Of a DNA stretch of 64,000 bases, positions 31,518 to 39,779 are shown one piece after another. The notes beneath the pieces are model-generated. The model was not told where the DNA came from, did no database searches, and was given only the letters and a program-made list of their open reading frames with translations. The stretch's first letter is position 1. Each line of letters starts with the position of its first letter. Both the position numbers and the translations under genes were made by a program. Source of the DNA: Alloyangia pacifica (GTDB lineage Bacteria > Pseudomonadota > Alphaproteobacteria > Rhodobacterales > Rhodobacteraceae); NCBI RefSeq assembly GCF_020524285.1, contig NZ_JAIVKX010000003.1:372001-436000 (forward strand), in the 5' to 3' direction.

Positions 31518-33317
31518 CTACTCGGCGGCGAGGCCGTCGGTGAACTGCAGCCGCGCCAGCCGGGCATAGAGCCCGCCCTCGGCAACCAGCGCGTCATGCC
31601 CGCCCTGCGCCACGATGCGCCCATGCTCCATGACGACGATGCGGTCGGCCTTCTTCACCGTGGCAAGCCTATGCGCGACGATGATCGTCGTGCGGCCCTC
31701 GGCCAGCGTGTCGACCGCCTGCTGCACCGCGCGCTCGCTCTCGGCATCGAGCGCCGAGGTCGCCTCGTCGAGCAGCAGCACCGGCGCATCGCGCAGGATG
31801 GCGCGGGCGATGGCCACGCGCTGCTTCTGCCCACCCGAGAGCATCACGCCGCGCTCGCCGAGGAAGGTATCGTAGCCCTCGGGCAGCGCGCTCAGGAAGT
31901 CATGCGCGGCGGCGGCACGGGCGGCGGCCTCGACCTCGGCATCGCTGGCACCGGGCCGCCCGAAGCGGATGTTGTCGCGCGCCGAGGCGGCGAAGATCAC
32001 CGGGTCCTGCGGCACCAGCGCGATGTGCCGGCGGAAGCCGTTGCGGCTCATCCGGTCAAGCGGCACCCCGTCGAGCAGCACCCGCCCCGCGTCGGGGTCG
32101 TAGAAACGCTGGATCAGCTGCACGATGGTGGTCTTGCCCGCGCCCGAGGGGCCGACGAGGGCGACGGTCTCGCCCGGCCGGATGTTCAACTCGATGCCGT
32201 CGAGCGCCTTGACGCCGGGCCGAGCGGGATAGGTGAAATCGACCTTGTCGAAGGTGATCTCGCCGCGCACGGTGCCGGGCACCGGCAGCGGCTGCGCGGG
32301 ATCGGTCACCGTGTCCTCGGCCTGCAGCAGCTCGACGAGCCGCTCGGTGGCGCCCGCGGCACGCTGCAGCTCGCCGAAGATCTCCGACAGCGCCGCCACG
32401 GCCCCGGCGACCATCACCGAGTAGATGACGAATTGCACCAGCGCCCCGGCGCTCATCTGCCCCGCGCGCACGTCCACCGCCCCGGCCCAGAGCACGCCGA
32501 CGATACCGGTAAAGACGAGGAAGATGACGATCGCCGTCATCAGCGCGCGGGTCTTCACCCGGCGGCGGGCCGCGTCGAAGCTCTTCTCGGTGACTTCGGC
32601 AAAGCCCTCGCGGCTGATCGCCTCGTGGGTGTAGCTCTGCACCGTCTGCACGGCGGAGAGCGCCTCGGCGGCATTGCCCGAAGAGACGGCGATCCAGTCC
32701 TGGTTCTCGCGGCTCAGCTTGCGCAGGCGGCGCCCGAGCGTGAGGATCGGCACGATCACCACCGGCACGATCAGCAGCACCATTCCGGTGAGCTTGGCCG
32801 AGGTGAAGAGCATCAGCGTCAGCCCGCCCGCGAAGAGCAGCAGGTTGCGCAGCGCGATCGACACCGACGAGCCGATCACCGAGAGGATCAGCGTGGTGTC
32901 GGTGGTGATCCGGCTGAGCACCTCGCCGGTCATGACGTTTTCGTAGAACGCGGGGGACAGGCCGATCACCCGGTCGAAGACCGCCTTGCGGATATCGGCC
33001 ACCACGCGCTCGCCGAGCCGGGTGACCAGCGCGTAGCGGGCGGCGGTGCCGAGCGCCAGCAGCGCGGCAATGCCGAGCGCCGCCATGAAGTAGCGGTCCA
33101 GAAGCGCCCCGTCCTGCGTGCCGAAGTTGTCCACCACCCGGCGCACCGCCAACGGCAGGGTCAGCGAGACGGTGGCGGTGGCGATCAGCGCGAGGATCGC
33201 GGCGATCATCAGCCCGCGATAGGGCTTCATGAAGGGCCAGAGGGCGCCCAGTGAGCCGAGTTTCCGGGATTTCTCGCGATCGTCCTGCACGGCGGCAGCC
33301 GGGTTTCCGTGGGCCAT
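31518..33317 (-). CDS. ABC exporter, MsbA-like (fused permease and ATPase)
   Basis: A 599-residue half-transporter with six membrane helices in the first 330 residues and a C-terminal nucleotide-binding domain. Walker A is VGPSGAGKTT (about residue 400), the signature is LSGGQKQRVAIARA, Walker B is VLLLDEATSALD, and the H-loop is IVAHRLATV. Such proteins work as homodimers and export lipids, peptides or drugs. AGGAGCGGG precedes the ATG. Placement next to the acyl-CoA synthetase gene is suggestive of a lipid substrate but no more. Confidence 0.9.
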   Translation of the reverse strand: MAHGNPAAAVQDDREKSRKLGSLGALWPFMKPYRGLMIAAILALIATATVSLTLPLAVRRVVDNFGTQDGALLDRYFMAALGIAALLALGTAARYALVTRLGERVVADIRKAVFDRVIGLSPAFYENVMTGEVLSRITTDTTLILSVIGSSVSIALRNLLLFAGGLTLMLFTSAKLTGMVLLIVPVVIVPILTLGRRLRKLSRENQDWIAVSSGNAAEALSAVQTVQSYTHEAISREGFAEVTEKSFDAARRRVKTRALMTAIVIFLVFTGIVGVLWAGAVDVRAGQMSAGALVQFVIYSVMVAGAVAALSEIFGELQRAAGATERLVELLQAEDTVTDPAQPLPVPGTVRGEITFDKVDFTYPARPGVKALDGIELNIRPGETVALVGPSGAGKTTIVQLIQRFYDPDAGRVLLDGVPLDRMSRNGFRRHIALVPQDPVIFAASARDNIRFGRPGASDAEVEAAARAAAAHDFLSALPEGYDTFLGERGVMLSGGQKQRVAIARAILRDAPVLLLDEATSALDAESERAVQQAVDTLAEGRTTIIVAHRLATVKKADRIVVMEHGRIVAQGGHDALVAEGGLYARLARLQFTDGLAAE

Positions 33318-33461
33318 TCCCGCTCCTTTGTCTTCAGGACGGTATTGCGGGCCCGCGCGGCCTGCGTCAAGGCGCGGCGTGTCACAGCCGCGCGCGCATT
33401 GCGGCTGCCGAGGCGCAGGGATCTGCAAACGACGGTATCGGGCAACGATGTCGGGGGAGTT

Positions 33462-33535
33462 TGGAGCGGGCGGCGGGAATCGAACCCGCGTCATTAGCTT
33501 GGAAGGCTAAGGTCTTACCACTACACAACGCCCGC
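33462..33535 (-). tRNA. tRNA-Gly (anticodon TCC)
   Basis: Minus-strand cloverleaf of 74 bases including an encoded CCA. The acceptor stem is GCGGGCG paired with CGCCCGC, the anticodon stem-loop is CTTAG/CCTTCCAAG with TCC at the centre, and the T arm contains GGTTCGATTCC. It decodes GGA and GGG. Confidence 0.96.
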
Positions 33536-33620
33536 GTAGTGGCGGGAGAGATATTGCAACCGGTCGGCCCGGTCAACCGCCCCCGCGCGGCTTTTGCAGG
33601 ATGCCGCCGCGTTTTTCCGG

Positions 33621-33650
33621 TGATCCAATCCGCGCGCCCCGGCGTAACCC
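33621..33650 (+). promoter_or_regulatory. Predicted RpoE promoter of the DUF2177 gene
   Basis: TGATCC (33621-33626), an 18-base spacer, and TAACCC (33645-33650). Box sequences and spacing are identical to the element before rpoE and nearly so to the one before the FAD oxidoreductase gene. The predicted start lies about 20 bases before the ATG at 33677, leaving room for the AAAGGA ribosome site. Confidence 0.78.
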
Positions 33651-33676
33651 CGAGGTAAGGTACCAAAGGACCTCCC

Positions 33677-34087
33677 ATGCAGACCCTCCTCCTCTACGGC
33701 ATCACGGCTGCCATATTCCTCGGCCTCGACATGCTCGGGCTGAAATACCTCATCCGCCCGGTCTTCGAGCGCCACGTGGGGCACCTGCTGGCAGAGCCGC
33801 TGCGGCTCGGACCGGCGGCAGGATTCTACCTTGCCTATGTGGTCGGGGTGCTTGTCTTCGTCTCGCTGCCGGCGCTGCGCGAGGGCGCGGCGCTGCAGGC
33901 GCTGTGGATGGGCGCGCTGCTCGGGCTGATGTGCTACGGCACCTACGAGATGACCAATTTCGCCACGCTGGCCGACTGGAGCTGGGAGCAGGTGATCGCC
34001 GACTGTCTCTGGGGCGCGGTGCTGACCGGTGTGTCCGCCTGGGCAGGGGTTGCGGCGGTTCTGGCGATCTTTCCGAGAGCGAGCTGA
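33677..34087 (+). CDS. DUF2177 membrane protein, probable RpoE-regulon member
   Basis: A 136-residue protein with four hydrophobic helices. It matches DUF2177: FLGLDMLGLKYLIRPVFERHVGHLL, then AAGFYLAYVVGVLVF and GLMCYGTYEMTNFATLADWSWEQVIADCLWG. The conserved Tyr/Asn/Trp residues near the last two helices suggest a buried functional site, but no activity is known. It is monocistronic and preceded by a promoter of the same form as the one before rpoE, so it is probably induced by RpoE-activating stress. Confidence 0.85.
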   Translation: MQTLLLYGITAAIFLGLDMLGLKYLIRPVFERHVGHLLAEPLRLGPAAGFYLAYVVGVLVFVSLPALREGAALQALWMGALLGLMCYGTYEMTNFATLADWSWEQVIADCLWGAVLTGVSAWAGVAAVLAIFPRAS

Positions 34088-34151
34088 CGACGTTCCTGAC
34101 CCGCCTCGCGTGAGCCCCCCTCCCCCCGCGACAGGTCCGGGGGTGAGGAGC

Positions 34152-34889
34152 TCAGCCCGCAAGCCGCGCCGTGAGGCGCAGCGCGACCGGGTAGGGCAAC
34201 AGCCGAAGCATCTTCAGCGCAAAGGTGAACCGCTTCGGGAAATGGATCTCGAAGCTGCGCCCGCTCATGCCCTTGGCGATGTCGCGCGCCGCTTGTTCCG
34301 GCTCGATCATCGCGGGCATCTTGAAATCGTTCTTGTCGGTCAGCCGCGTGCGCACGAATCCGGGGCAGACCAGCCGAACGTCGACCCTTGGCGCAAGCTC
34401 AACCCGCAACGTCTCGGCGAGGTTGATGATCGCCGCCTTGGTCGCGGAATAGGCCTGCCCCTTCGGCAGACCCACATAGCCCGCCACCGAGCCGAAGAGC
34501 GCAAGCTGCCCGCCCTCGCGCAGCACCTTCGGAGCGCATTGCGCCACCAGCAGCGTGCCGGTCACGTTCACCTGCACCAGCGCTGCGGTCTTCTCCGGAT
34601 CGAGGTCCACCACCCGCGCAGGATCGTAGAGCGCCGCGGTGCAGACGAGCGCATCGAGCTTGCCGCCCTCGGCGACCCGCTCGGAAGCGGCGCCGAGACT
34701 CTCGGCACGCGCAAGATCGAGCGGCACCACCTCGGCACCGCCACACTCTGCGGCGAGCGCCTGCAGCGCCTCCTCGTTGCGAGCAGAGAGCACCAGATGC
34801 GCGCCCTGCCCGGCCAGCTCCTTCGCCAGCGCCGCGCCGATGCCCGAGCTGGCGCCGATCAGCCAGATGCGTTTGCCGTCGAAACTCAT
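34152..34889 (-). CDS. SDR-family oxidoreductase, third gene of the rpoE operon
   Basis: A 245-residue classical short-chain dehydrogenase: GASSGIG (residues 12-18), the active-site Ser in LFGSVAGYVG, and YSATK with intact Tyr and Lys. It starts 2 bp after the chrR stop, so it is almost certainly cotranscribed with rpoE and chrR. In R. sphaeroides an SDR gene is part of the RpoE-controlled cluster near rpoE-chrR. The substrate is unknown; the C-terminal hydrophobic and basic tail (FTFALKMLRLLPYPVALRL) suggests membrane contact and a lipid substrate. Confidence 0.86.
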   Translation of the reverse strand: MSFDGKRIWLIGASSGIGAALAKELAGQGAHLVLSARNEEALQALAAECGGAEVVPLDLARAESLGAASERVAEGGKLDALVCTAALYDPARVVDLDPEKTAALVQVNVTGTLLVAQCAPKVLREGGQLALFGSVAGYVGLPKGQAYSATKAAIINLAETLRVELAPRVDVRLVCPGFVRTRLTDKNDFKMPAMIEPEQAARDIAKGMSGRSFEIHFPKRFTFALKMLRLLPYPVALRLTARLAG

Positions 34890-34891
34890 GG

Positions 34892-35527
34892 TCAGATGCG
34901 GAACAGCGGCTGCAGCAGGCGCGGAATCATCGCGCGGAACCGCAGCGGCGCGTCGGTGGCGGCAAGGCAGATGCAGGGCCCCTCGTCACCCGCCATGGGC
35001 TGGTGGTCGACATCGTCTGAAGCCACCTCGACATCCCCGGCGCCGAACCGCCCCTCACAGTCCGAGAAGCTGCCCTGCAGCACCAGCGTCAGCTCGAGCC
35101 CGCCGTGGGTGTGCTCGGGTACGGCGCGACCGCGCGGGATGTAGAGCAGGCGAAGCGAGCCCTCGGCATCGGCGCTGAGGATCTGCTGGCGGATGCCGCC
35201 GCCCAGCATTTTCCAGCGCGGCGGCTGGCCTTTCAGCGCCTCCATGACGGGGGCGGGAAAGATGCCCGACCCACGCTGCTGCGGAGGGGGTGGCGGCGCG
35301 CTGTCGAGCGCTGCGAAGAGACGGTCCTTTGCGCCGGAGGAGACGGCCGCGGGAGCCATGCTGGACAGCAGGGCGCCGCCCAGGGCCGCCTCGGTCTCGA
35401 CCGCGGCGCGGCAGGCATCGCAGAGCGACACATGCGCCGCGATCACAACCGCAAAGGGCTGCGGCAGCGTGCCTGCGGCATAGGCGCGAAGCATCTCCTC
35501 GGGGATATGATGGGTGATCTTGCTCAT
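34892..35527 (-). CDS. chrR: ChrR-type zinc anti-sigma factor
   Basis: ChrR holds RpoE inactive until singlet oxygen or related stress triggers its turnover. The 211-residue protein has the ZAS domain ligands His6, His32, Cys36 and Cys39 (HVSLCDAC) and a C-terminal cupin domain with PEHTHGGLELTLVLQG and a later VDHQP, supplying the cupin metal ligands. Its ATG overlaps the rpoE stop in an ATGA arrangement. In the characterised system the cupin part is needed for the singlet-oxygen response. Confidence 0.95.
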   Translation of the reverse strand: MSKITHHIPEEMLRAYAAGTLPQPFAVVIAAHVSLCDACRAAVETEAALGGALLSSMAPAAVSSGAKDRLFAALDSAPPPPPQQRGSGIFPAPVMEALKGQPPRWKMLGGGIRQQILSADAEGSLRLLYIPRGRAVPEHTHGGLELTLVLQGSFSDCEGRFGAGDVEVASDDVDHQPMAGDEGPCICLAATDAPLRFRAMIPRLLQPLFRI

Positions 35528-36081
35528 TGGGATCTCAGGTCGGTCAGGTCGCGCCGCAGGCGGTCGAGCCCGAGGCGGATACGGGATTTGATCGTGCCCA
35601 GCGGCAGGCCGGTGATCCGGCTGATCTCGCTGTGGGGCATTTCGTCCATGTAGGCGTGACGCAGCGCCTCGATCTGTTCGGGCCTCAGCTTCTGCAGCGC
35701 TTCGCGCAACTGCGCCGCCTCCTGCTCCATGGCGAGGATCTGCGGCGCGTCGGGCTCGGAACTCTCGGGCTCCTGCATCAGTTCCGGCTCGGGCAGCGGC
35801 TTGCGCCGGTAGAGGTCGATCTGGCGGTTGCGCGCGATCCGGTAGATCCAGGCCGAGGCCTCGGCCCGGTGCGGGTCGAATTGCGCCGCCTTGTTCCAGA
35901 CCGAGATCATCACGTCCTGCACCACGTCCTCGGCACTGCCGTCGCGCAACCCGCTGCGGATCAGCATCGCCTTCAGCCGGGGCGCGAAGAAATCAAACAG
36001 CCGACCAAAGGCCTCGCGGTCCCTGCGGTCGCGCACGGCAAGCAGCCATTGCGTCTGTTCGGTTCTTTGGGCGGGCGTCAC
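35524..36081 (-). CDS. rpoE: ECF sigma factor RpoE (ECF11 type)
   Basis: Group IV sigma factor of 185 residues paired with ChrR. Region 2 is AEDVVQDVMISVWNKAAQF with DPHRAEASAWIYRIARNR following, and region 4 is LRPEQIEALRHAYMDEM plus ISRITGLPLGTIKSRI. I chose the GTG at 36081 (VTPAQRTEQ) because AGGAG lies 6 bases upstream; longer in-frame reading upstream has no ribosome site and crosses the promoter. Its own promoter element (36194-36223) has the same boxes as the promoters of the putative target genes, which indicates autoregulation. Confidence 0.94.
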   Translation of the reverse strand: MTPAQRTEQTQWLLAVRDRRDREAFGRLFDFFAPRLKAMLIRSGLRDGSAEDVVQDVMISVWNKAAQFDPHRAEASAWIYRIARNRQIDLYRRKPLPEPELMQEPESSEPDAPQILAMEQEAAQLREALQKLRPEQIEALRHAYMDEMPHSEISRITGLPLGTIKSRIRLGLDRLRRDLTDLRSQ

Positions 36082-36193
36082 ACGGGTCTCCTTGCTCTTG
36101 CGTCGTATCACCAAGTTAGCAGGTCTCGGGCCTTCCGGCTGGAAAGCATCGAACGCTTCGGGCGTGGTGAGGCGGCCATCAAGAGACATGTAG

Positions 36194-36223
36194 GGGTTAC
36201 GGCGGCCAAGGCGAAAAGGATCA
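36194..36223 (-). promoter_or_regulatory. Predicted autoregulated rpoE promoter
   Basis: On the minus strand: TGATCC (36223-36218), an 18-base spacer, TAACCC (36199-36194). The predicted start near 36187 gives a leader of about 105 bases before the GTG of rpoE. Confidence 0.78.
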
Positions 36224-36478
36224 CCCGAGGTATGAATTTTTTTGCGGGCGCAAGCACTACGCCTGCAAAATGCATGGAGAGCGCCATGCCAAGGCGGGCC
36301 GATGGGATGGCGCCCCTCTGCCCGAGGCGCGCGCTTTTTGCCAGCCAAAGCCCTGCGTCCTCCGAGCAATGCGCGGCGATGACAGTTGCCTGCCCGCGCG
36401 CGGGGAGGTGCGCGCCCGACGACCGGTACACGTGCCCGGCGCATCCGAAAAAAATTCCCCCTCGCCTCAACGCCTTGG

Positions 36479-36508
36479 TGATCCATTTCGAATCCACATG
36501 CGTAACAA
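36479..36508 (+). promoter_or_regulatory. Predicted RpoE promoter of the FAD oxidoreductase-DUF1365-CFA operon
   Basis: TGATCC (36479-36484), an 18-base spacer and TAACAA (36503-36508). The leader to the GTG at 36542 is about 27 bases and contains GGAGG. The rest of the 460-base gap between rpoE and this operon holds no recognisable gene apart from the rpoE promoter. Confidence 0.75.
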
Positions 36509-36541
36509 TCATATGTCCAGTTTTTCGCGGCGGAGGTTTGC

Positions 36542-37834
36542 GTGGCCCTAGACCTGTCTTTCGGAGTTCCCCAGCGCGTCGCCGTGATCGGCGGCGGCAT
36601 CTCGGGTCTCGCCAGCGCATGGCTCCTGTCGCAGCGCTGCCGCGTCACGCTTTACGAGGCCGCGCCGCGGCTTGGCGGCCACGCCCGCACGGTCGTCGCC
36701 GGGCGCTACGGCGACCAACCGGTGGACACCGGCTTCATCGTCTTCAACTACGCCAACTACCCGCATCTGACCGCCCTGTTCCGCGACCTCGACGTGCCGG
36801 TGCAGCGCAGCGACATGAGCTTCGGCGTCTCGCTCGACGGCGGTCGGCTGGAGTATGCGCTGCGTTCGGGTAATGCGCTCTTCGGCCAGCGCAGCAACCT
36901 CGCGCGGCCCGGCTTCTACGCGATGATCCGCGACATCCTGCGGTTCAACGGTCAGGTGGAAGCGACGGCTGCGGCGCGTCCCAACGCCTCGATCGGCGAG
37001 TTGCTGGACGTGCTGGGGCTCGGAACCGCTTTTCGCGAGCGCTATCTTTACCCGATCTGCGGCGCCATCTGGTCCACCCCCTCGGCGAAGATCGGCGACT
37101 TCCCGGCGCAGGCACTGGTGCGCTTCCTGCGCAATCACGCCCTGCTCTCGGCCGGCGGCCAGCACCAGTGGTGGACCGTGTCGAGGGGCAGCCAGAGCTA
37201 CGTCTCGCGCCTCACCGCAGCGCTCGAGGCGCGGCAGGTCTCACTGCGGCCCGGCACACCGGTGCGCCAGGTGACACGGGATGAGCGCCACGTGCAGGTG
37301 ATGACCGACGGCGAGGCGCCCGAGACCTATGACCAGGTGATCTTCGCCTGCCATGCCGATGTCGCTTTGTCGCTGCTTGCCGCGCCCAGCGCCGCCGAAC
37401 GCCGTGCTCTGGGCGCGGTGAAGTTCCAGAACAACCACGCCGTTCTGCACCGTGACACCCGCCTTATGCCGAACCGCCGCCGCTGCTGGAGTTCCTGGGT
37501 GTTCCGCACCGAACCCGGAACGCCTGCCGACCTGCCCGTCGGTGTGACCTACTGGATGAACCGGCTGCAGGGCATTCCCGACAGCGATCCGATGTTCGTG
37601 ACGCTCAATCCGCAACGCGAGATCCCGGAAGAGCTGATCTACGACCAGAACACCTTCCGCCACCCGGTCTTCGATCTCGGCGCGCTAGAGGCGCAGGGAA
37701 AGATCGCCGCGCTGCAGGGGATGAACCGCAGCTGGTACGCCGGGGCATGGCTGCGCAATGGTTTCCATGAGGACGGCTTTGCCAGCGCCGTTCGCGTTGC
37801 GCGGAAAATGCTGCCCACCCCGGTGGCCGCATGA
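36542..37834 (+). CDS. FAD-dependent amine-oxidase-like oxidoreductase
   Basis: A 430-residue flavoprotein with the dinucleotide motif VAVIGGGISGLASAWLLS (about residues 13-30), followed by GGHARTV and PVDTGFIVFNYANYPHL, the signature of the NAD/FAD-binding, squalene/phytoene-desaturase-like group found next to DUF1365 and cyclopropane-synthase genes. The GTG start has GGAGG 5 bases upstream. It heads a three-gene operon with ATGA overlaps and has an RpoE-type promoter. By context it probably oxidises or desaturates a phospholipid acyl chain; a fatty-acid desaturase role as in furan fatty acid synthesis is possible but unproven. Confidence 0.85.
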   Translation: MALDLSFGVPQRVAVIGGGISGLASAWLLSQRCRVTLYEAAPRLGGHARTVVAGRYGDQPVDTGFIVFNYANYPHLTALFRDLDVPVQRSDMSFGVSLDGGRLEYALRSGNALFGQRSNLARPGFYAMIRDILRFNGQVEATAAARPNASIGELLDVLGLGTAFRERYLYPICGAIWSTPSAKIGDFPAQALVRFLRNHALLSAGGQHQWWTVSRGSQSYVSRLTAALEARQVSLRPGTPVRQVTRDERHVQVMTDGEAPETYDQVIFACHADVALSLLAAPSAAERRALGAVKFQNNHAVLHRDTRLMPNRRRCWSSWVFRTEPGTPADLPVGVTYWMNRLQGIPDSDPMFVTLNPQREIPEELIYDQNTFRHPVFDLGALEAQGKIAALQGMNRSWYAGAWLRNGFHEDGFASAVRVARKMLPTPVAA

Positions 37835-38607
37835 ACGCCAGTCTCTCGGACACGCTCGAAGGCGGCGAGATGCTGCACCTTCCCGCCCGCGTCACCCACG
37901 CGCGGCGCGGAGGTATCCGGCATGCCTTCGCCTACCGCGTGGACTACCTGCTGCTCGATCCCGAGCGCGCGCGGCCCCGCGCCTTCTTCTCGCGCAACCG
38001 CTTCAACCTCACCGCGCTGCACGATCGCGACCACGGCGGCCCGCGCGGCGCCGGCGAGGGCGCGAAATGGGCGCGTCGGGTCTTCGCGAATGCCGGGCTC
38101 GATGAGATCTCGGTGGCGCTGATGACCCAGCCGCGCTTTCTCGGCTACTGGTTCAGCCCCGTGTCGTTCTGGCTGGCCCTGCGCGGCGACAGGCTGCTGG
38201 CGGTGATCGCCGAGGTGAACAACACCTTCGGCCAGCGCCACAGCTACCTGTGCCATCACCCCGGCTTCACCCCAATCGCGCCCGGGGACGAGCTGACCGC
38301 GACCAAGGTCTTCCATGTCTCGCCCTTCCAGGACGTGCAGGGCACCTACCGGTTCCGCTTTGCCATCAGCACCGCCGGGACGGCCATCGCGATCCACCAG
38401 ATCGACGGCACGGAGGGGCTGATCGCCACGATGCACGGCGATTTTGCACCGGCTTCGTCGATGCGCCTGCTGGGCGCTGCCCTGAAACGCCCCGGTGGCG
38501 CGATGCGCGTGATTGTGCTCATCTATTGGAATGCGCTCCGCCTGAAACTCAAGGGGGCTGGCTATCGCAAGCTGCCCACTCCGCCCGAAAACGAGGTCAG
38601 CCGATGA
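37831..38607 (+). CDS. DUF1365 protein
   Basis: A 258-residue member of DUF1365. Typical segments are RVTHARRGGIRHAFAYRVDYLLLD, NRFNLTALHDRDHG, MTQPRFLGYWFSPVSFWLA and NNTFGQRHSYLC. KVFHVSPFQDVQGTYRF follows. No cofactor motif is visible, but conserved His, Tyr and Asn residues suggest an enzyme. It overlaps both neighbours by 4 bases (ATGA). In R. sphaeroides a gene of the equivalent locus next to the cyclopropane-synthase homologue was reported to be needed for singlet-oxygen-triggered ChrR turnover; identity with this family is my recollection and should be checked. Confidence 0.85.
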   Translation: MNASLSDTLEGGEMLHLPARVTHARRGGIRHAFAYRVDYLLLDPERARPRAFFSRNRFNLTALHDRDHGGPRGAGEGAKWARRVFANAGLDEISVALMTQPRFLGYWFSPVSFWLALRGDRLLAVIAEVNNTFGQRHSYLCHHPGFTPIAPGDELTATKVFHVSPFQDVQGTYRFRFAISTAGTAIAIHQIDGTEGLIATMHGDFAPASSMRLLGAALKRPGGAMRVIVLIYWNALRLKLKGAGYRKLPTPPENEVSR

Positions 38608-39779
38608 TCCTGCCCGTGACGACCCTGATGAAACGCCGCTTCCTGTCGACGCTGGAGCGGATCGAGACGGGCCAGCTTACATTGATCACCCCCGAGGGCA
38701 CCCGCCATCGCTTCGGCGACAGCGGGCCCGAGGCAGAAATGCACATCCTCGACTGGGCGATGCTGCCCGCGCTTGCGGCGCGCGGCGAGGTGGCGCTCGG
38801 CGAGACCTATGTCGCGGGCCTCTGGCACAGCTCGAGTCCGGAACGGCTGATCCGCCTGGCGCTCGACAACCTCGACGCGGTCGAGCACTACGTGACCCCC
38901 GGCCCGCTCGCCCGCCTGAAATTTCAGTTAATCGACCGGGTGCTGCGCGCCAACAGCCTCAAGGGGTCGTCCCGCAACATCCGCGCGCACTACGACGTCG
39001 GCAACGAGTTCTACCAACTCTGGCTCGACCCGGGCATGACCTATTCCTCTGCGCTCTTTGCCGAGGGCGAGAGCGATGACGCCCTGCCCCATGCGCAGGA
39101 CCGCAAGTACGACCGCATCCTGTCGCGGCTGAGTGAAGCGCCCTCGGTGCTGGAGATCGGCTGCGGCTGGGGCGGTTTTGCCGAGCGCGCGGCGGAACAG
39201 GGGCGGAGCGTCACCGGGATCACCCTCTCGCCGAGCCAGAAAGGCTACGCCGATGCCCGCCTCGACGGACGCGCCGAGATCCGGCTTCAGGACTATCGCG
39301 CCGTGCAGGGGCGCTTTGCCAACATCGTGTCGATCGAGATGATCGAGGCGGTGGGCGAGCGCTACTGGCCGGTCTATTTCGCCACCCTCAAGAACCGGCT
39401 GGCCGAGGGCGGGCGCGCCGTGCTGCAGGCGATCACCGTGCAGGACGCGGAGTTTTCGCTCTACCGCAAGCGCACGGACTTCATCCGCCAGCACACCTTC
39501 CCGGGCGGCATGCTGCCGTGCAACGCGGTGCTGGCCCGCGAAGCGCAGAAGGCCGGGCTGGTGCTGCGCGAGAGCTTCGCCTTCGGCCAGGATTACGCGC
39601 GCACCTGCCGCATCTGGTGCGACGGGTTGCTGCGCCAGCGCAAGCGGATCGAGACGCTCGGATACGGCGAGACCTTCCTGCGCAGCTGGCAGTTCTACCT
39701 CGACGCCTGCGCCGCCACCTTCGCAAGCGGGCGCACCGACGTGGTGCAGGTCGAACTGCGCCATGCCGGCGAGACCTAA
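38604..39779 (+). CDS. Cyclopropane-fatty-acid-synthase family methyltransferase
   Basis: A 391-residue SAM enzyme acting on unsaturated phospholipid acyl chains. It has the CFA features NIRAHYDVGNEFYQLWLDP and MTYSSALF, the SAM motif VLEIGCGWGGFAERAA (about residue 178), GITLSPSQ, DYR, and the catalytic-base region FIRQHTFPGGMLP. True cyclopropanation and methyl transfer (as in UfaM, the first step to methylated and furan fatty acids in R. sphaeroides) cannot be told apart by eye. The operon and promoter context favour the second. ATG overlaps the DUF1365 stop. Confidence 0.87.
   Translation: MILPVTTLMKRRFLSTLERIETGQLTLITPEGTRHRFGDSGPEAEMHILDWAMLPALAARGEVALGETYVAGLWHSSSPERLIRLALDNLDAVEHYVTPGPLARLKFQLIDRVLRANSLKGSSRNIRAHYDVGNEFYQLWLDPGMTYSSALFAEGESDDALPHAQDRKYDRILSRLSEAPSVLEIGCGWGGFAERAAEQGRSVTGITLSPSQKGYADARLDGRAEIRLQDYRAVQGRFANIVSIEMIEAVGERYWPVYFATLKNRLAEGGRAVLQAITVQDAEFSLYRKRTDFIRQHTFPGGMLPCNAVLAREAQKAGLVLRESFAFGQDYARTCRIWCDGLLRQRKRIETLGYGETFLRSWQFYLDACAATFASGRTDVVQVELRHAGET

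Follow-up and report, generated by a model that had tools for sequence, protein, structure and literature searches.

We examined a 64,000-nt stretch of the Alloyangia pacifica genome (contig NZ_JAIVKX010000003.1; hereafter, the window) in which the pattern TGATCC-N16-CGTAAC occurs three times, and we conclude that these sites are very probably promoters read by the sigma factor RpoE, serving an operon of rpoE, chrR and a short-chain dehydrogenase (SDR) gene, the divergent ufaD-ufaO-ufaM operon, and a gene for a DUF2177 membrane protein within one RpoE-ChrR circuit. The three sites are as follows:

TGATCC 33621-33626, CGTAAC 33643-33648, plus strand: RpoE-type promoter of the DUF2177 gene.
TGATCC 36223-36218, CGTAAC 36201-36196, minus strand: autoregulatory promoter of rpoE.
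TGATCC 36479-36484, CGTAAC 36501-36506, plus strand: RpoE-type promoter of ufaD.

The original prediction had placed a single −35/−10 pair, spaced by 18 bases from TGATCC to TAAC, at three positions, and all three were found where it had put them. It had also described two of the box pairs as identical and the third as differing in its last bases; the first part stands, but the boxes are in fact identical at all three sites and differences begin only after TAAC. Likewise, its statement that each site lies at a proper distance before a start codon holds for DUF2177 (ATG at 33677) and ufaD (GTG at 36542) but not for rpoE, whose ATG (36189) is 7 nt after CGTAA, so that the transcript would be expected to begin on the start codon itself, a feature that had gone unnoted. 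Among 400 dinucleotide shuffles of the window, TGATCC-N18-TAAC occurred 0.015 times on average and at most once, and three occurrences were reached in 0/400; the looser TGATCC-N17..19-TAA averaged 0.15 and reached three in 1 of 100 shuffles. The genome-wide search that had been suggested with the prediction, run as TGATCC-N16-CGTAA, returned four matches in 5.73 Mb, three of them inside the window. Two wider patterns were dropped as too loose, namely the motif relaxed by two mismatches (23 matches vs. 17.9 expected) and TGATCC-N15..17-CGT (215 matches in the genome).

Judged by its letters, this kind of promoter is already known. The likeness to Rhodobacter sphaeroides RpoE promoters that the prediction had drawn is borne out, as the published R. 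sphaeroides promoter is TGATCC-N15-GCGTA (PMC5036791) and the published Pseudomonas syringae consensus is TGATCC-N16-CGTA (PMC5507510); the window sites match this RpoE-ChrR (ECF11) consensus, with a G before CGTA at two of the three sites and none at the rpoE site. In anchored alignments of promoters from related loci (described below), the boxes are conserved and the spacer is almost without conservation. An A/T tract lies approximately 11-17 bp upstream of the −35 box at rpoE promoters (consensus of 52 sequences, AAAnTTT at −17 to −11 from the box), is less strong at ufaD promoters, and was not seen in the DUF2177 promoter alignment. The window carries the tract twice, 11 bp further from the −35 box at ufaD than at rpoE, and we regard it as possibly UP-element-like:

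36235..36243, minus strand: A-tract AAAAAAATT upstream of the rpoE −35 box.
36448..36456, plus strand: A-tract AAAAAAATT upstream of the ufaD −35 box.

From left to right, the locus comprises DUF2177 on the plus strand, the SDR gene, chrR and rpoE on the minus strand, and the ufaD-, ufaO- and ufaM-like genes on the plus strand:

33677..34087, plus: DUF2177 membrane protein, 136 amino acids (aa), proposed RpoE target (PF09945, 129.3 bits; cut-off 26.9).
34152..34889, minus: SDR, 245 aa (PF00106), 2 bp after chrR.
34892..35527, minus: chrR, zinc-binding-type anti-sigma factor (TIGR02451, 201.3 bits; cut-off 124.5).
35524..36189, minus: rpoE, long reading frame from ATG 36189, 221 aa (domain and structure matches).
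36542..37834, plus: UfaD-like flavin amine oxidase family protein (PF01593).
37831..38607, plus: UfaO-like DUF1365 protein (PF07103, 212.3 bits).
38604..39779, plus: UfaM-like cyclopropane-synthase-family methyltransferase (PF02353, 234.3 bits).

These matches support the sigma/anti-sigma pair as probable orthologues of the structurally solved RpoE-ChrR pair of R. sphaeroides. RpoE has sigma regions 2 and 4 (PF04542, PF08281) and its best PDB match is 2q1z (E 2.6e-45), while ChrR aligns to 2z2s (E 3.8e-57) with HxxxCxxC and HxHxxxE kept, as are the zinc ligand residues listed in PMC6852236. An RpoE orthologue, an adjacent ChrR with zinc anti-sigma and cupin-like domains, and a promoter of their own of the form TGATCC-N16-CGTA, i.e., the marks of an ECF11 RpoE-ChrR system, are thus all present in the sequence. 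The domain families of the Ufa operon (flavin oxidase, DUF1365 and methyltransferase) are likewise found together; the ufa names rest on these families, and the enzyme activities are presumed from R. sphaeroides, in which UfaM methylates, UfaD desaturates, and UfaO (DUF1365) inserts oxygen (PMC7380195). The R. sphaeroides SDR RSP1087 has 245 aa (PMC7380195; PMC7074977), the same length as the window SDR.

In the circuit that we propose, ChrR, a zinc-binding anti-sigma factor, would keep RpoE inactive, and removal of ChrR, for which the trigger in R. sphaeroides is singlet oxygen or an organic peroxide, would free RpoE. Free RpoE would then transcribe its own rpoE-chrR-SDR operon as a feedback, the divergent ufaD-ufaO-ufaM operon for methylated furan fatty acids, and the nearby DUF2177 gene. 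In R. sphaeroides, genes of the ufa kind help to activate RpoE. Transcription from the three sites, and the activating signal, in Alloyangia pacifica are what we infer from these likenesses, and DUF2177 would presumably serve the membrane response. The view that the window holds an RpoE regulon with autoregulation and its nearest targets, which the prediction had put forward, is supported because orthology, the published consensus, conservation of the promoters in related loci, and their near absence in loci of one differing layout (type C, below) all point to it. Promoters of a known kind thus extend a model regulon to a genome outside the model organisms.

Elsewhere in the genome, TGATCY-N16-CGTA gives 11 sites (the window three included) as compared to 2 for a reversed-pattern control, and two sites outside the window precede a photolyase gene (L320) and a fasciclin gene (L326), both of which kinds are in the 15-gene R. 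sphaeroides regulon list (PMC7074977). Besides the window three and these two, only L319 and L328 possibly stand before a likely start: in L319 (1501-2206) the site is 41 bp before a 213-codon frame without a Pfam match, and in L328 (3-1526) it is 124 bp before a gene for cytochrome bd oxidase subunit I. The remaining sites were set aside: within 300 bp of L324 and L325 no 70-codon reading frame begins, L327 lies inside a long frame, and L329 stands before short, doubtful frames.

Comparison of related loci suggests that RpoE recurrently targets DUF2177. Named genomes were scanned and, of 561 DUF2177 relatives, the best 80 were kept, which biases the set to close kin; in these 80 loci, motifs were scored as matches out of 11 positions; a threshold of at least 9/11 was used for this comparison and of at least 10/11 for the family sample below. 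Aside from four loci with other layouts, three types were distinguished, with motif counts given for testable loci:

Type A, 44 loci, window layout: motif before DUF2177 in 35/44, ufaD in 43/43, rpoE in 43/43.
Type B, 15 loci (rpoE in the locus in 11), ufa genes followed by SDR and DUF2177, all on a single strand: motif before DUF2177 in 0/15, ufaD in 14/14, rpoE in 11/11.
Type C, 17 loci, inverted ufa genes and no adjacent rpoE-chrR: motif before DUF2177 in 1/17, ufaD in 1/17, no rpoE present.

Types A and C differ clearly in the motif before DUF2177 (Fisher p 1.4e-7), and among 2200 shuffles of the type-A regions only 69 reach a score of 9 and 3 a score of 10. In type B, the gap before DUF2177 is 6-164 bp in 11 loci and ∼740 bp in four. 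Type-A loci have the motif and type-B loci have DUF2177 on the same strand after the SDR gene, so that DUF2177 would come under RpoE either through a promoter that it has to itself or, probably, as part of an operon. Another genome (G398:C5:100061-101080) may show a third arrangement for bringing DUF2177 into the regulon, with the gene immediately following chrR in the same orientation. At the family level, DUF2177 is present in 74 of 199 genomes, and 13 of the 75 DUF2177 genes alignable to the window protein (one match, L144, could not be aligned and was left out) have a motif of at least 10/11, the window's included, in every case 21-43 bp before the start; 0/1500 shuffles reach this score. 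In the class sample, the motif reaches at least 9 at 8 of 30 DUF2177 loci, and ChrR is found in 29/37 genomes with DUF2177 as compared to 85/252 without it (p 3.5e-7).

Several observations weigh against DUF2177 being a regular RpoE target. Related loci share descent and are not independent; the motif is absent before DUF2177 in 9 of the 44 type-A loci (one of which, L208, is cut 31 bp upstream), and in 13 of the 35 positives it lies 72-153 bp from the start instead of 25-46. No more than 13 of the 75 family genes reach 10/11, the difference between ChrR-bearing and ChrR-lacking family genomes (13/65 vs. 0/10) is not significant (p 0.19), and co-occurrence of DUF2177 with ChrR in the family (64/74 vs. 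93/125, p 0.049) was rejected as support for being too weak. The type-C loci have, moreover, diverged further in sequence (UfaD 45-50%), with the absence of rpoE-chrR scored at the locus only; four loci (L215, L270, L274, and L279) retain a motif before ufaD although the sequence examined around them shows no rpoE; and DUF2177 is not named in the published 15-gene R. sphaeroides list (PMC7074977), some entries of which are given as ‘hypothetical’. The many DUF2177 genes of ChrR-bearing genomes that lack the motif could mean that the window site is a chance or relic match and that another promoter drives the gene, which we consider very improbable given the shuffles of the window, the 13 strong family cases with their narrow placement before ATG, and the same-strand position downstream of the ufa genes in type B. 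As a separate observation, L215 is a Tabrizicola locus lacking rpoE-chrR between SDR and ufaD with both motifs kept, and a ChrR match occurs elsewhere in what is probably its genome (G110).

The DUF2177 protein is predicted to form four long helices (predicted local distance difference test, pLDDT, 91.7; predicted template modeling score, pTM, 0.86); its model matched no PDB fold at E ≤ 0.001, and no solved relative was found by sequence at E ≤ 1. A Chlamydomonas DUF2177 gene is induced by singlet oxygen (log2 3.25, as compared to 0.08 in sak1), and the same table includes CFA1/2, DUF1365 and fasciclin-like genes (PMC4067076). Judging from the company it keeps, our guess is that DUF2177 has a role in membrane-lipid defense. 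As a regulon partner in bacteria that is also induced by singlet oxygen in an alga, this uncharacterized membrane protein may have a shared membrane defense function. A limited literature search, in which COG4852 gave nothing, found no report of DUF2177 as an RpoE target among the sources seen. DUF2177 has also been reported in operons near heliorhodopsin genes, another light-related link (PMC11109279).

The second observation that goes beyond the original prediction, DUF2177 as a recurrent target being the first, concerns the start of the rpoE transcript, where two codons have to be considered:

36187..36189, minus: ATG where transcription is expected to begin, proposed to start an N-extended RpoE without a leader; conserved in related loci.
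36079..36081, minus: internal in-frame GTG, 36 codons after ATG 36189, proposed start of a short RpoE, with AAGGAG at 36088-36093.

In all 55 type A/B rpoE loci (window included), an open, in-frame ATG stands 7 or 8 nt after CGTAA and reads into rpoE, whereas at the same distance ufaD promoters have an ATG in only 3 of 59 loci, each stopped after 12 codons, and DUF2177 promoters in 0 of 37. Among 30 ChrR loci of the family, 29 have the promoter (their RpoE being 41-52% identical to that of the window) and 27 of the 29 have an in-frame ATG at 6-9 nt; among 40 class-level loci (in three of which no RpoE was found), the promoter was found in 33, of which 18 also have the ATG, as compared to an expectation of ∼2% per locus if loci were independent. 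A search of 394 family genomes with R. sphaeroides RpoE found a best identity of 77%, so that R. sphaeroides itself was not among them, and of the 12 loci nearest to its RpoE (a sample sharing two genomes with the 30-locus family sample), nine have the ATG at 7 nt, one at 10 nt, one has an ATG with a stop in the extension, and one an ATG out of frame. For Shewanella RpoE2, whose promoter has the same boxes, mapping placed the start at an A downstream of them (PMC4336711). With less confidence than for the promoters themselves, we thus take a leaderless rpoE mRNA to be the best reading of the start region. A limited literature search found no report of a conserved leaderless-type rpoE start in the sources seen. 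The window also has an ATG 7-8 nt after the ufaD −10 box, opening a 12-codon frame (36513-36551) that ends just past GTG 36542; it resembles the frames at the ufaD promoters of L201 and L202, belongs to the three among 59 loci, and could be a leaderless leader peptide.

Three readings of how this ATG relates to the protein have to be weighed. On the one that we favor, tentatively and at somewhat short of an even chance, the RpoE-dependent rpoE transcript has two starts, a leaderless ATG that adds ∼36 residues and an internal start with a Shine-Dalgarno (SD) sequence that gives the short RpoE familiar from R. sphaeroides; the long form may be less stable or be bound differently by ChrR, shaping the feedback as SigR′ does in Streptomyces. 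The restriction of the open ATG to rpoE promoters fits this, as does the internal site. Of 53 loci (two of the 55 rpoE loci without the core pattern were left out), 48 have an NTG codon 8-20 codons ahead of the conserved core, as compared to ∼54% by chance, and it is exchanged among GTG (26), TTG (12) and ATG (10); SD runs of at least 5 occur at the best internal start in 54.5% of the 55 loci vs. 15.8% of control codons, and in 21.7% vs. 6.3% among 23 of the 30 family loci (seven were left out). Residue 8 of R. sphaeroides RpoE aligns with residue 40 of the window protein, so that the PDB protein starts close to the internal site, and one locus (L373) has a stop inside the extension and yet keeps the internal GTG. 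The SigR′ precedent (PMC5472188) makes two RpoE isoforms plausible by analogy. On the other side, runs of at least 4 are hardly above control (89.1% vs. 77.3%) and in the family fall below it (60.9% vs. 70.2%), the ATG is absent in 15 of the 33 class-level loci, and a crude scan of 33300-36700 showed no basal sigma-70-like promoter (0.3 expected by chance). The extension is also weakly constrained as a protein, with 95 synonymous and 164 non-synonymous changes in 21 non-independent pairs vs. 66 and 193 expected, and its GC excess at the third position is slight (0.67 vs. 0.65 at the first, the third being highest in 28/53 loci).

The same ATG conservation (55/55 and 27/29), together with an SD signal that is weak at some of the internal sites, would be expected if the leaderless ATG were the sole start, the internal NTG were unused, and the N-terminus of RpoE were simply longer in these bacteria; the exchange of start codons and the strong SD-like runs at the internal site, the stop codon in L373, and the solved R. 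sphaeroides protein without an extension make this doubtful. Conversely, the little-conserved extension and the rarity of leaderless starts in Sinorhizobium meliloti (171/17,001 in PMC3616915) would agree with use of the internal start alone, the conserved ATG arising as a side effect of base preferences near the point where transcription begins. We consider this unlikely because all three letters of the ATG and its frame are kept in 55/55 loci while nearby bases vary, and the other two promoters keep no open frame at that position. On the reading with two starts, it is possible, though we hold it only as a tentative proposal, that in Rhodobacteraceae and part of the Alphaproteobacteria induction of RpoE yields a leaderless N-extended RpoE alongside a short, SD-started one. 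If so, the circuit would have a built-in second feedback step like that of SigR′, perhaps favored when stress favors leaderless translation, and the N-extended form would have been missed since short RpoE was the form studied and solved. At the center of a well-studied stress circuit, the conserved AUG would predict leaderless translation and perhaps a sigma isoform with an N-terminal extension.

The window resembles the R. sphaeroides RpoE-ChrR regulon in its sigma/anti-sigma orthology, consensus, ufa genes, and photolyase and fasciclin targets, but its SDR gene follows chrR whereas in R. sphaeroides the SDR gene ends the RSP1091-1087 operon, its ufaM-like gene sits with ufaD-ufaO, and DUF2177 is an added unit, unnamed in the published 15-gene list. 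The P. syringae PSPTO_1043 and Shewanella RpoE2 regulons (PMC5507510, PMC4336711) share TGATCC-N16-CGTA and have rpoE-chrR, phrB, cfa and SDR genes among their targets; unlike in the window, DUF2177 was not met in the target descriptions seen. With Streptomyces SigR/SigR′, in which the anti-sigma factor RsrA also binds zinc, the proposed common trait is an upstream ATG, on the transcript that the sigma factor itself induces, that yields a lengthened isoform (PMC5472188), and an upstream in-frame ATG and a downstream start codon are both present in the window sequence; however, the window ATG would be leaderless, the extension has ∼36 residues instead of 58, and a second promoter was not found by the crude scan. 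The SAK1-dependent singlet oxygen genes of Chlamydomonas likewise include CFA1/CFA2, DUF1365, fasciclin-like and DUF2177 genes (PMC4067076), but SAK1 is a eukaryotic regulator and the common gene list is a correlation.

In type C, the same gene set may have changed its sigma factor. Five of the 17 type-C loci have a SigK-like ECF (extracytoplasmic function) sigma gene and an RskA-type anti-sigma gene beside the ufa-SDR-DUF2177 cluster:

L254, 14168-15381: SigK/RskA-bearing type-C locus.
L260, 13788-15022: SigK/RskA-bearing type-C locus.
L232, L261 and L269: further SigK/RskA-bearing type-C loci.

The pattern CAAC[CT]TT-N-CGT precedes DUF2177 or ufaD in 10 of the 17 type-C loci, as compared to 0 of 117 type A/B regions and 2 of 3400 shuffles. 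RpoE of R. capsulatus is described as SigK/RskA-like as well, and an RskA match was also present in one type-A locus (L206).

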